DNA of 42,650 nt, taken from positions 1-42,650 of the forward strand of contig NZ_JAHOPH010000032.1 of the NCBI RefSeq assembly GCF_019798055.1, in the 5' to 3' direction. Below, piece after piece: positions 6,274 through 37,989 of the stretch (within the stretch, counting starts at the first letter, position 1; each line of letters begins with the position of its first letter). This stretch comes from Salsipaludibacter albus. Lineage in GTDB: Bacteria > Actinomycetota > Nitriliruptoria > Nitriliruptorales > Nitriliruptoraceae. Below the pieces are notes generated by a model. It made no database searches. It worked only from the letters and a program-made list of their open reading frames with translations, and had not been told where the DNA came from. The position numbers and the translations under genes are program-made.

Positions 6274-7649
6274 CCCCGACCCTCGCCCTCCTGCTGGTCG
6301 TCGTCCTGGTGGCGGGAAACGCCTTGTTCGTGGCCGCCGAGTTCGGGCTGGTGAGTGCGTCGCGGGGCGAGCTGGAGGAACGGGCGCAGCGGGGTGACCG
6401 CGCCGCTGGCCGCGCCCTGGGCCAGCTCGCGAACCTCTCGTTCGTCCTGTCGGCCTGCCAGTTCGGGATCACCGCGACGTCCCTGCTGGTGGGGTTCCTG
6501 GCCGAGGACGCGGTCGGCGCCGTGTTGGTCCAGCCGGTCGTCGACGCGCTGGGGCTGCCCAGTGGGAGCACGACGACCATCTCGGTCGCCGCGGCCTTCC
6601 TGATCTCGACGATGTTCCAGATGGTCGTCGGCGAGCTCGCCCCGAAGAACCTCGCGATCTCGCGGCCGGAGGCCACCTCGGTGGCGACGTCGTTGCCCCT
6701 GCAGATCTTCGGCGTGGTCTTCGGACCGGTCATCCGGGTGTTCGACGGCGCCGCTGCATGGCTGACCCGTCGGGTGTTCCGCGTGGAGGTGCAGGACGAG
6801 CTCGCCGGTGGGCTCAGCCTCGACGAGCTGTCGAGGATCATCGAGGCGTCGGGTCGGGACGGCACGTTGTCGGACCAGCAGGCCATGCTGCTCGGCCGGG
6901 CGGTGTCGCTGGGGGACCGGCGCGCCGTCGAGGTGATGGTGCCGCGGCCCGACATCGCCTGGGTCGAGTCCTCGGAGCCGTTGTCGACGCTGCGGGACGC
7001 CGCCCGGAGGACCGGCCACTCCCGGTTCCCCGTCCGTGACGGCGACCGGGTGACGGGGTCGGTGCACGTCAAGGACCTGCTCCGGGTGCCGGCGGCCGAC
7101 CACGACCGGGTGACGGTCGAGGAGGTCACGACCGGCGTGCTGCTGGTGCCCGAGAGCGAGACCCTGCGTCGCCTCCTGCTGCGACTGCGCAGCGAAGCCC
7201 GGACCTTCGGTGTCGTGGTCGACGAGTACGGCGTGTCGACCGGCCTGGTCACGCTGGAGGACGTCCTGGAACAGCTGGTCGGGCGGATCGAGGACGAGCA
7301 CGATCCGCGTGGCGTGCCGATGGTGCGCCGGCTCGGCCAGGGCACCTTCCTGGTGGCCGGCCGCCTGCCGGTGGATCGGCTGGGCGATCTCGCCGGCACC
7401 GACGTGCCCGTGGCCGACTACGACACCGTCGCCGGCTTCGTGATCAGCGAACTGGGCAGGATCCCGACCGAGGGCGACCGCGTCGAGACCGCCGACGCCG
7501 CGTGGGAGGTCACCCGGATGGAGGGCCAGCGGGTCGCTGAACTCCGCCTGGAGGTGACGTCGTCGGGTGACGATCGTCCCGAGGACGAGCTCGACCTGCC
7601 CGCCGCCGTCACCGAGACCCGGTCGCCCGACGACGAGGACTCGTCATGA
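6270..7649 (+). CDS. CNNM/CBS-domain membrane protein (CorC/HlyC family), first of tandem pair
   Basis: A 459-aa membrane protein of the CNNM (DUF21) family, linked to Mg2+/Co2+ export and also known as hemolysin-like. Membrane segments begin at the GTG start (LALLLVVVLVAGNALFVAAEF). The conserved VVGELAPKNLA motif lies near 116-126. A CBS pair follows at about 200-340, with SRFPVRDGDRVTGSVHVKDLL and VVVDEYGVSTGLVTLEDVLE. The C-terminus is a CorC_HlyC domain of about 80 aa. It overlaps the TetR gene upstream and the second CNNM gene downstream, each by 4 bp, implying translational coupling. Transport activity is inferred from the family. Confidence 0.92.
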   Translation: MTPTLALLLVVVLVAGNALFVAAEFGLVSASRGELEERAQRGDRAAGRALGQLANLSFVLSACQFGITATSLLVGFLAEDAVGAVLVQPVVDALGLPSGSTTTISVAAAFLISTMFQMVVGELAPKNLAISRPEATSVATSLPLQIFGVVFGPVIRVFDGAAAWLTRRVFRVEVQDELAGGLSLDELSRIIEASGRDGTLSDQQAMLLGRAVSLGDRRAVEVMVPRPDIAWVESSEPLSTLRDAARRTGHSRFPVRDGDRVTGSVHVKDLLRVPAADHDRVTVEEVTTGVLLVPESETLRRLLLRLRSEARTFGVVVDEYGVSTGLVTLEDVLEQLVGRIEDEHDPRGVPMVRRLGQGTFLVAGRLPVDRLGDLAGTDVPVADYDTVAGFVISELGRIPTEGDRVETADAAWEVTRMEGQRVAELRLEVTSSGDDRPEDELDLPAAVTETRSPDDEDSS

Positions 7650-35541: not shown

Positions 35542-35621
35542 CACCGCGCCGCGGGGAGTTGGCCGGGCGGCGTCGCATCGGCCACACTCGGGGTCCGTCC
35601 GGCCCATCCGAGGACCCCACC

Positions 35622-37298
35622 GTGCCCGTACGCGACGACGCCCTGCTCCTGGTCGACCACCTGGAGGCAACGGTCGACCGCATGGTCGACCACCTCGCCC
35701 ACGCCGTGGTCCACGACGGCCGGCCGTCGACGGACGCCATCGACGCGCACGGCACCGTGGCCTACGACGTCGCCACGATCGCCTCGGGGGTCGAGGCGGC
35801 CCGTGCCCTGGTCACCGTGGCGTTCGACGACGCGGCACCCACCGACGACCTCCTCGAGGCGGACCTCGCGCTGGTGTTCGCGGCCGACGTCGCGGCGGAC
35901 CTCGTCGCCCGAACGACCGGCCGCCGGGCCGCCTTCGGGCTGGACGACGAGCCGGACGGCCCGGACGACGGCCCGGGTGACCCTGACGTCGCCGCGGCAC
36001 TGGCCGCAGGGCGCGATCCGGCGCTGCTGGCCAGCGTCGGCCAGCGCGTCCTGGACGGGCAGACCGCGCCGCGTCACCTGGGCGAGGACCTCGAGATGGT
36101 GCGCCAGGCGTTCCGACGCTTCGCCGAGGAACGGGTCGTGCCCATCGCCGAGCAGGTCCACCGCGAGGACGCCGACATCCCCGACGAGGTCGTCACCGGC
36201 CTGGCCGAGATGGGCTGTTTCGCCCTGTCGATCCCCACCGAGCACGGTGGCATGGCCGACGGCAGCCCGGACGAGCTGCTCAACATGGTGGTGGTCACCG
36301 AGGAGCTGTCCCGGGGCTCGCTGGGTGCGGCCGGTTCCCTCATCACGCGCCCCGAGATCATCGGCACGGCGATCCTCAAGGGCGGGACCACCGAGCAGCA
36401 GGAGCGCTGGCTCCCGACCATCGCCTCGGGCGAGAAGATGTGTGCCGTCGCCGTCACCGAGCCCGACGTCGGCTCCGACGTGGCCGGGATGACCACGACC
36501 GCGACCCGAGACGGTGACGACTGGGTGCTGGACGGGGTCAAGACGTGGTGCACGTTCGCGGGGCGGGCCGAGTACCTGCTGGTGCTGGCGAGGACCGACC
36601 CGGACCGGTCGCGTGGCCATCGTGGGCTGTCGCTGTTCGTGGTCGACAAGCCACGCTTCGCCGGCCACGAGTGGTCGGTGGAACAGGACGGACCCGACGG
36701 ACCAGGCTCCGGCGGCCGCATGGAGGCACGGGCGATCCCGACGCTGGGCTACCGCGGCATGCACTCCTTCGAGGTGGCGATCGACTCCTGGCGGGTGCCC
36801 CACGCCAACCTGGTCGGCGAGGACGACGGGATCGGCCGGGGGTTCTACCTCCAGATGCAGGCCTTCGCGAACGCCCGGCTCCAGACGGCTGCCCGGGCGC
36901 TGGGGGTGATGCAGTCCGCGCTGGACGAGGCGGTCGCCTACGCCGACCAGCGTCGGGTGTTCGGCAGTGCGCTGGCCGACTACGAGCTGACCCGGGTCAA
37001 GGTCGCACGCATGGCCGCCCTGATCGCGGGCAACCGGGCCTTCGCGGTGGCGGTCGCCCGGATGCTCGCCGCCGGCACCGGTCAGCTCGCCGCCTCGCAG
37101 GTCAAGCAGCTGGCCTGCCGCACGGCCGAGTGGGTCACCCGCGAGGCCCAGCAGCTGCACGGCGGCTACGGCTACGCCGAGGAGTACACCGTCTCGCGCC
37201 TGTTCGTGGACGCCCGCGTCCTGAGCATCTTCGAGGGCGCCGACGAGGTCCTCGCCCTCAGAGTCATCGCTCGCCAGTTGGTGTCCGACCATGCATGA
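35622..37298 (+). CDS. mcd: (2S)-Methylsuccinyl-CoA dehydrogenase
   Basis: A 558-aa acyl-CoA dehydrogenase of the ethylmalonyl-CoA pathway, oxidising methylsuccinyl-CoA to mesaconyl-CoA during acetyl-CoA assimilation. It has an N-terminal extension of about 145 aa before RVLDGQTAPRHLGEDLEMVR, the arrangement of Mcd. It then shows AVTEPDVGSDVAGM, GVKTWCTFAGRAEYLLVLAR, TLGYRGMHSFEVA, NARLQTAARALGVMQ and REAQQLHGGYGYAEEY. The catalytic Glu is probably Glu538 in SIFEGADEVLALR. The start is the GTG at 35622, with GAGGA 7 nt upstream. The original C-terminus seems to have been displaced: a second copy of the tail lies 106 bp downstream, and the present protein ends early, in VSDHA. Confidence 0.93.
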   Translation: MPVRDDALLLVDHLEATVDRMVDHLAHAVVHDGRPSTDAIDAHGTVAYDVATIASGVEAARALVTVAFDDAAPTDDLLEADLALVFAADVAADLVARTTGRRAAFGLDDEPDGPDDGPGDPDVAAALAAGRDPALLASVGQRVLDGQTAPRHLGEDLEMVRQAFRRFAEERVVPIAEQVHREDADIPDEVVTGLAEMGCFALSIPTEHGGMADGSPDELLNMVVVTEELSRGSLGAAGSLITRPEIIGTAILKGGTTEQQERWLPTIASGEKMCAVAVTEPDVGSDVAGMTTTATRDGDDWVLDGVKTWCTFAGRAEYLLVLARTDPDRSRGHRGLSLFVVDKPRFAGHEWSVEQDGPDGPGSGGRMEARAIPTLGYRGMHSFEVAIDSWRVPHANLVGEDDGIGRGFYLQMQAFANARLQTAARALGVMQSALDEAVAYADQRRVFGSALADYELTRVKVARMAALIAGNRAFAVAVARMLAAGTGQLAASQVKQLACRTAEWVTREAQQLHGGYGYAEEYTVSRLFVDARVLSIFEGADEVLALRVIARQLVSDHA

Positions 37299-37418
37299 CG
37301 TGGCCGGTCGCCAATGCGTGGGACGTTCTGAGCGCAGCGAAGAACTCCAACGCGCCCGGAGGGCGCGCGTCATCGCCCGCCAGTTGGTGGCCGACGCCGC
37401 GGCTGACGCGGCCGGCGC
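37263..37418 (+). repeat. Diverged direct duplication of mcd tail with intervening hairpin segment
   Basis: 37263-37310 and 37369-37418 are two copies of the mcd C-terminal coding end (GTCATCGC, then CGCCAGTTGGTG), differing at several bases and a 3-bp gap. Copy 2 would encode RVIARQLVADAAADAAGA and ends at a TAG that abuts the next gene's GTG, so it looks like the ancestral tail. Between them lie GTTCTGAGCGCAGCGAAGAA and the hairpin GCGCCCGGAGGGCGC. Confidence 0.75.
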
Positions 37419-37422
37419 GTAG

Positions 37423-37989
37423 GTGGCCACCGATCCGGCCGACGGGCCGCCTCGCTCCGATCCGGTCACGGTCACCGTGGCCCGCCGCATCGCCCCGGGG
37501 CGCGAGGAGGACTTCGTCGCGTTCTCGCGGCGGGCGCTGGCCACGGCGGCCGACTGGCCCGGCTTCCTCGGTGGCGGGATCCTGCGACCGCCACCGGGCG
37601 GGGACGAGTACCACGTCGTCTACCGCTTCGTCGACGCGGACGCCCAGCGCGCCTGGGAGGAGTCCGACCAGCGCGCCTCGCTCATGGAGGACGGCGACGA
37701 GCTGATGGAGACCATCGGCGTGTGGCGCATCCGCGGTCTGCACGACTGGTTCGACCTGCCCGGTCGGGGCGCCGACGGCCCGCCGAAGTGGAAGCTGGCG
37801 GTCGTGGCGTGTGCCGCGGTCATCCCGATGTCGCTGGCGATGACCTGGTGGATCGTGCCGGCGCTGGACGTCCTGCCGGTCGTCCCGCGCACGGTCGTGA
37901 CCTCGGTGATCTTCGCCGCCTACATGACCTTCCTGGCCGTGCCCTGGATCAGTGGGCTCGTGCGACGCTGGCTGTATCCCCGGGACTGA
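37423..37989 (+). CDS. ABM-domain protein with C-terminal membrane segments
   Basis: A 188-aa protein. Residues 13-105 form an antibiotic-biosynthesis-monooxygenase-like ferredoxin fold (VTVTVARRIAPGREEDFVAF, then YHVVYRFVDADAQRAWEESD). Two hydrophobic helices follow at about 124-142 and 152-176 (LAVVACAAVIPMSLAMTWW and VTSVIFAAYMTFLAVPWISG). This ABM plus two-helix plan is a known bacterial membrane type of unknown function. The GTG start at 37423 directly follows the TAG of the displaced mcd tail, so it was probably coupled to mcd translation. Any enzymatic activity is unproven. Confidence 0.8.
   Translation: MATDPADGPPRSDPVTVTVARRIAPGREEDFVAFSRRALATAADWPGFLGGGILRPPPGGDEYHVVYRFVDADAQRAWEESDQRASLMEDGDELMETIGVWRIRGLHDWFDLPGRGADGPPKWKLAVVACAAVIPMSLAMTWWIVPALDVLPVVPRTVVTSVIFAAYMTFLAVPWISGLVRRWLYPRD

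Follow-up and report, generated by a model that had tools for sequence, protein, structure and literature searches.

The window, meaning the whole 42,650-nucleotide stretch of DNA analyzed here, is contig C26 of the genome of Salsipaludibacter albus (G000). It contains an acyl-CoA dehydrogenase gene, called mcd here after the name given in an earlier, sequence-only reading of the same DNA, followed by a gene with an ABM domain. The end of mcd is present twice, and the features of the junction between the two genes are as follows.

35559 to 37298, forward strand: acyl-CoA dehydrogenase (mcd) open reading frame, starting at the TTG at 35559 or further in, assigned by Pfam (Acyl-CoA_dh_N/M/1) and by the relative at locus L022 with 78% identity
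37263 to 37311, forward strand: mcd tail copy 1, joined to the gene, delimited by repeat search and gapped alignment
37312 to 37319, forward strand: stretch of 8 nt from tail copy 1 to hairpin 1, a left arm or filler
37320 to 37351, forward strand: hairpin 1 of a dispersed element (positions 1 to 32 of model R1, 52.5 bits, E value of 5.1e-13; also supported by folding)
37351 to 37367, forward strand: hairpin 2, CGCGCCC-GGA-GGGCGCG, with a 7-bp stem and a 3-nt loop; base 37351 is common with the end of the R1 match
37369 to 37418, forward strand: mcd tail copy 2, displaced and of the ancestral type
37423 to 37989, forward strand: ABM-domain gene, assigned by Pfam and overlapped by the mcd stop codon in the sister species

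The sequence-only reading had noted two diverged copies of the mcd end lying 106 bp apart, and both are there: a direct repeat of 27 nt that is 93% identical links 37263 to 37289 with 37369 to 37395 (106 nt from start to start), and gapped alignment widens it to 51 columns (37263 to 37311 against 37369 to 37418). The repeat scores 49, a value matched by 1 of ~3,000 cross-locus flank pairs, for which the maximum was 51. Tail copy 2 translates as VIARQLVADAAADAAGA*, and its TAG (37420 to 37422) is directly followed by the ABM gene's GTG at 37423, also as previously described. Tail copy 1 stops 8 nt short of hairpin 1 and has 2 nt fewer than copy 2 at the place where the TGA at 37296 to 37298 comes into frame, ending the mcd open reading frame inside the copy (translation VIARQLVSDHA*). 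The tail had been described as truncated, and it is indeed shortened, but the change to the protein is small because the match to the Pfam C-terminal domain spans positions 1 to 149 of 150, its last residue being 552 of 557. The residues that come after VIAR(QL) or its equivalent differ among the mcd relatives compared.

Both GTTCTGAGCGCAGCGAAGAAC and the GCGCCC/GGGCGC hairpin that had been read between the tail copies are found in the mcd spacer. The earlier idea of a repeat element is borne out, but the element is not one hairpin: the core of the spacer (37320 to 37367) is a copy of a dispersed, two-hairpin element of ~50 nt, one of a family with recurrent target duplication. In an alignment of 21 variants, hairpin 1 has the stem TGGA(C)GTTNN ... 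NNAACTCCA, which encloses GA-GC[GNA]GC-GA; in other copies, the inner part is swapped for different short stems, with GA retained on both sides. Hairpins with GNA triloops and tandem G.A pairs are stable. The NN/NN stem positions covary (CT/AG, GT/AC, CC/GG, and GC/GC), and cells changed on both sides numbered 10 among the 21 typed variants, whereas shuffles gave 3.6 and none of 500 reached 10; of the five measures in that test, two were unremarkable (79 of 500 shuffles as high), including the number of pairs with a change on both sides, an ordinary 3. With 92 distinct rows, there were 23 such cells, compared with 5.3 after shuffling (none of 500 shuffles reached 23), and 5 such pairs versus 2.6 (1 of 500); this alignment was fitted to the model and leans to structure, whereas the 21-variant alignment was not fitted. 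The covariation shows that the stems of hairpin 1 are kept by compensatory change.

Hairpin 2 immediately follows hairpin 1 in 75 of the 106 copies, compared with 7 of 106 when shuffled. Its loop is 3 nt long in 27 copies (24 of them GNA by hand count), 11 to 16 nt in 13, and 30 to 35 nt in 31, with outliers of 4, 7, 38, and 52 nt. Folding of the window copy alone is moderately better than that of shuffled sequences (z of -1.8 as DNA and -2.0 as RNA). A CSGNAG motif is found in left flanks of the copies, ~10 to 20 nt before hairpin 1; it lies in the 30-nt segment preceding hairpin 1 in 24 of 75 copies, further left in 5 of 75, and on the right in 3 of 75. The element may have a left arm that is missing from the window copy.

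Other genomic copies of the spacer, which the sequence-only reading had expected of an insertion, are numerous. GAGCGCAGCGAAGAAC occurs 11 times in the genome with at most one mismatch, including the window copy, and its reversed control does not occur. A search of G000 with 37290 to 37368 as the query gave matches with left edges mostly at query positions 26 to 41 and right edges at or before position 79 (up to 37368). Model R1 finds 54 copies in G000 at an E value of ≤0.001 and 61 at ≤1. When 61 genomes were searched with R1 at an E value of ≤0.01, there were 55 copies in G000, 53 in G001 (the sister species, which alone of the 60 relatives searched belongs to the same genus), and no matches in the other 59. 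Among the 21 genomes listed from a search of 296 genomes across the phylum, with strict filters and an E value of ≤1e-4, G000 was the sole match (G001 was not listed). The R1 counts are lower bounds because the model scores weakly a second subfamily in which the stem is reversed (AGAAC-GA-..-GA-GTTCT), as at L280 and L260 in G001 and L254 in G000. Sites of the reversed-stem subfamily in G001 include L260 (1339 to 1500), L259 (~989 to 1020), L022 (6877 and 6968), and L280 (~1426 to 1454); L260 holds a two-copy array at a gene end, and the same end in G000 (L248) has the first subfamily.

Both subfamilies are addressed by a structural scan that requires an outer stem of 5 bp or longer, GA on each side, and an inner G/C stem. 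The scan gave 1 match in the window and 0 in the shuffled window, 39 in 64,296 bases of G001 element loci, 40 in 67,413 bases of G000 element loci, and 1 in the mcd loci of other genera, which total 242,535 bases. By R1 and the scan, the window holds one copy, and a site is described below as lacking the element on the basis of R1 plus the scan. An Rfam search with seven loci up to an E value of 1 returned only a chance match to mir-7558 (E value of 0.55) in L144, off the element. Tandem arrays of two or three elements stand at L147, L145, L205, L220, L223, L228, L135, L127, and L248, and several of them include part of the flank in the repeated unit.

The probable state of the junction before insertion can be seen in the sister species. 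The nearest mcd relative in the genome collection (L022, JAGXFT010000143.1) belongs to a Nitriliruptorales metagenome genome and has a single tail, VIARQLLADAAGA*, with a TGA that overlaps the GTG of the next gene. A relative with one tail and no gap is what had been predicted for an insertion. There is no second mcd tail in the next 400 nt of L022 (best score, 22 of 86), and the mcd-ABM junction there lacks the element; two variant elements lie ~2.3 kb beyond it, those at 6877 and 6968. The tail copies in the window are alike at 25 of 27 positions, compared with 21 and 22 against the sister, which fits a duplication that took place after the species split.

Long duplications recur at other copies of the element. 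For each single element, the 90 nt to the left were compared with the 60 nt to the right of hairpin 2; of the 75 copies with hairpin 2 (among 106), the 50 that have no neighboring copy were used. The ~3,000 cross-locus control pairs had a 99th percentile of 24 and a maximum of 51. Four of the 50, including the window copy, have direct repeats of 37 to 56 columns with scores of 39 to 49 (3 of 49 when the window copy is left out), and in these four the right copy begins 0 to 2 nt past hairpin 2. Besides mcd, they are the end of an aldehyde dehydrogenase gene (TTWIAL*) at L254 in G000, the start of a coaE-like gene at L200 in G001, and the end of a polX-like gene at L123; the identities of these genes and of the gene at L248 are presumptive, having been recognized by eye. 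A long repeat at the right joint is absent in 45 of the 50, with L138 counted as a weak case (16 columns, score of 27) and left out of the four; L213 scores 46 and was also left out, as its repeat starts away from the right end of the element. The duplication pattern is independent of gene orientation, because L200 involves a gene start and the displaced copy at L138 is on the left. The left junctions carry 4 to 17 nt belonging to neither copy nor hairpin 1. In a comparison of left junctions that took 59 of 103, 13 of the 59 loci scored at least 30 (same-locus far-left control, 1; inverted control, 0; cross-locus control, 0.8%), and nine of these 13 were tandem-array, hairpin, or off-junction matches that were left out of the count; the gapped flank alignment took 105 of the 106 copies. 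Gene tails are repeated around the elements of array L127 and in L248, which reads VATIAG*-E-VATIAG*-E-VATLAS*. In L200, the element lies at 801 to 848 on the reversed strand, and the working coaE-like start has GIGSGKS whereas the displaced one has GIVSGQ; the displaced start has lost its Walker A residues, as a relic in decay would.

As at mcd, the polX-like and coaE-like genes have a single end in the other species. The next 400 nt there hold no second copy (best scores, 18 of 124 and 19 of 90, respectively), and the sites lack the element, with one unrelated scan match in L285 lying ~1.5 kb away. More broadly, 8 of the 50 G000 element loci share flanks with one of 40 G001 element loci (three of them on one side only); five weak G001 matches were left out of this comparison, and the weak or short flank matches L132/L206, L249/L215, L254/L220, and L141/L208 were not counted as shared. 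Two further sites, L248/L260 and L254/L280, are shared with variant elements in G001. A search for empty sites used 18 G000 loci chosen from those not seen as shared, for which 11 G001 loci were taken as orthologous in a reading of 23 matches. One of these, L264, ends at a contig edge ahead of the site, and the other 10 cover the site (7 with both flanks and 3 with one). Nine of the 10 lack the element, including L259, where variant elements occur elsewhere, and L260 has its two variant elements. The sole pair aligned well enough across the junction, L148/L261, suggests a short (8-bp) duplication. Turnover of the element between the two species is substantial.

We give a probability of about three in four to the reading that a two-hairpin mobile repeat inserted at the mcd 3' end after the two species split and duplicated ~50 bp of the tail. 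The spacer would then be one copy of a small, noncoding, REP/MITE-like repeat, restricted to the genus as far as searched. Its right end, at the foot of hairpin 2, would have been joined inside the mcd tail and its left end ~50 bp further downstream, and the tail would have been duplicated because the two joints were ~50 bp apart. The upstream copy probably became the working end of mcd, shortened by the loss of 2 bp, and the downstream copy would be the original tail, displaced but still directly adjoining the start codon of the ABM gene. Such a history would involve an enzyme acting in trans with a long and variable stagger (~37 to 70 bp at the clear sites and perhaps less elsewhere), and the duplication would let an insertion within a gene end rebuild that end. 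This reading draws on what is observed: the dispersed family, its paired structure, the empty site in the sister species, and the long duplications at the same right joint elsewhere. The constant right joint together with the variable length points to an element-specific insertion with a long stagger. Several observations count against this reading: no cognate transposase was found; most single elements have no long repeat at the right joint; the left junctions carry the 4 to 17 extra nt; the aldehyde dehydrogenase arrangement described below is shared by both species; the copies at the polX-like and coaE-like genes differ from each other about as much as from the other species; and, for the structure, two covariation measures are unremarkable and the window copy folds only moderately better than shuffles. 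The proposal in the sequence-only reading that a small repeat element had inserted with target duplication is essentially right.

Three kinds of mobilizing enzyme were considered. The Y1_Tnp domain (PF01797) of a RAYT has 0 matches in G000, which is 97.3% complete, and was found in 5 of 14 control genomes. An IS1634-type transposase was a candidate because IS1549 and IS1634 make long direct repeats; the IS1634-family model (NF033559) has no match in G000 and one fragment under the cutoff in G001. Target-primed reverse transcription was considered because the right end is fixed and the left end is variable, and the reverse transcriptase domain RVT_1 is absent from G000 and present once in G001. 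All three were rejected for G000. It is a tentative possibility that the element represents a genus-restricted, REP-like class that spreads by an undescribed insertion process, with a precise joint at the foot of hairpin 2, the other end joined with extra bases tens of base pairs away, and a duplication that rebuilds the gene end and is then kept and homogenized as species diverge. That process would need no RAYT, IS1634-type transposase, or reverse transcriptase, all three having been sought in G000 and not found.

Three contig ends in G000 break inside copies of the element (C9:1-122, C31:1-122, and C12:218971-219092; loci L004, L007, and L006, respectively). The same 122 bp, identical at all three, encode a protein C terminus, ..PVDTKGASAVNLLIPPKVAQ*, and run into the loop of hairpin 1; beyond that point, the hairpin 2 sequences differ. 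This repeat is confined to those three contig ends in G000 and G001, and the 35-amino-acid C terminus has no Pfam or NCBIfam match. It looks like a multicopy insertion sequence lying inside element copies, and it resembled an autonomous partner of the element.

A replication error could also place an element between two tails: after copying the mcd tail, the nascent strand would have jumped to an element copy elsewhere, come off it at the foot of hairpin 2, and reannealed ~50 bp upstream. The hairpins, the variable length of the duplications, the extra nucleotides at the left junctions, and the tandem arrays listed above, some of which contain flank, would all suit such a history. It is nevertheless unlikely, as the four clear single cases share one right junction, 0 to 2 nt past hairpin 2, and random switching would not readily yield dispersed copies numbering over 50 in both species.

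The spacer might instead be a functional 3' element, either a bidirectional terminator or an mRNA-stabilizing pair of hairpins, with the tail copies perhaps maintained as well. The gene context is in keeping with this: of the 82 loci that have a gene on either side, convergent pairs account for 37, tandem pairs for 40, and divergent pairs for 5, compared with 22, 69, and 21, respectively, of 112 baseline gene pairs. The baseline is a rough one, derived by simple coding-score gene prediction from the window plus 22 other loci (Fisher P values of 0.0002 for the convergent excess and 0.01 for the divergent deficit). The count takes one context per locus for 82 of 86 loci, omitting 4 at contig ends, and two loci with their only copy inside a gene call are not among the 86. 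Element copies favor convergent gene gaps, and the compensatory changes in their stems also speak for a function.

Further support for a functional element comes from the aldehyde dehydrogenase gene, where a tail-element-tail arrangement is present in both L254 (G000) and L280 (G001). In L280, a variant element separates the first tail copy from a second one 80 nt further along (39 of 50); the hairpin 1 stem of this variant is GCAGAAC/GTTCTGC, and R1 scores it at only 11.3 bits. The second tail and the variant element exclude L254 as a filled/empty site. Within each species, the tail copies are alike at 21 of 22 positions (T versus C, at the same place in both), three differences between the species are present in both copies, and the element pair has compensatory stem changes (GGAGAAC/GTTCTCC versus GCAGAAC/GTTCTGC). 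As the arrangement is common to both species, the insertion at this gene predates the split. The tail copies have changed in concert, by gene conversion or selection; a duplication can be maintained, and the displaced aldehyde dehydrogenase copy is not simply decaying. The earlier reading had held that relatives with the same two-copy arrangement would argue for function over recent insertion; such relatives were not seen at mcd but were seen at this gene, which makes a functional role possible for the element family. As an account of the mcd spacer, a functional element is quite unlikely, given that the sister mcd does without it and has overlapping genes, that only the 8 of 50 G000 loci share flanks with a G001 element locus, with two more at variant elements, and that the origin of the duplication is left unexplained. 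A function may be true as a secondary role of the element.

Import by recombination of a relative's mcd and element DNA, with one end in mcd and an illegitimate end in the tail, is very unlikely: the copies do differ at silent sites, and at the polX-like and coaE-like genes the attached, displaced, and other-species copies are about equally distant, the first two being about as different as the two species, but the mcd copies are alike at 25 of 27 positions compared with 21 and 22 for the sister, and a random illegitimate end would not repeatedly hit the foot of hairpin 2.

Insertion of the mobile repeat thus remains the preferred reading, and the mcd site gives a rare clear look at how tiny elements may spread. 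The mechanisms by which REP-like palindromes are disseminated are described as poorly understood in the available text of PMC8266576. Filled and empty sites mark the insertion joints, so that the cut sites and the missing enzyme can be sought. The long duplications hint at how a gene end can tolerate an insertion within it, and here one element separates mcd from the ABM gene, which overlap in the sister species.

Several known systems share features with the element. REPs are short palindromes present in many copies in intergenic regions, between convergent or unidirectional genes and near 3' ends, as described in the available text of PMC3733652, and the context bias of the element agrees with that description. 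Like REP elements of the GTAG/CGTC type, the element is palindromic, extragenic, and dispersed in many copies that lie mainly at the 3' ends of genes. Unlike them, it has no unpaired GTAG or CGTC tag, and the conserved GGA..TCC at the foot of hairpin 1 is paired; it consists of two dissimilar hairpins in a fixed order with long target duplications, and G000 has no Y1 domain (RAYT) of the kind associated with GTAG-type REPs. The words "duplication" and "target site" are absent from the main text of PMC3733652. Prokaryotic MITEs are short, dispersed, and noncoding, with direct repeats flanking the younger copies (according to the available text of PMC10969869). The element resembles them in being noncoding, short, dispersed, and associated with a target site duplication (4 of 50 single elements), but its direct repeats span 37 to 56 columns and a parent insertion sequence was not found; the copies listed showed no terminal inverted repeat spanning the element. 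The available text of PMC2266710 describes long direct repeats, variable in length, for IS1549 and IS1634, the sole precedent found for this feature; those elements encode a transposase, whereas neither G000 nor G001 has an IS1634-family transposase above the cutoff. A search of open-access literature gave nothing relevant on Nitriliruptor repeats. Compared with the literature searched, the REP/MITE-like family to which the spacer belongs is new: it is defined, structured, and apparently genus restricted, several of its insertions come with a long target duplication, and at one gene the arrangement has been kept through speciation.
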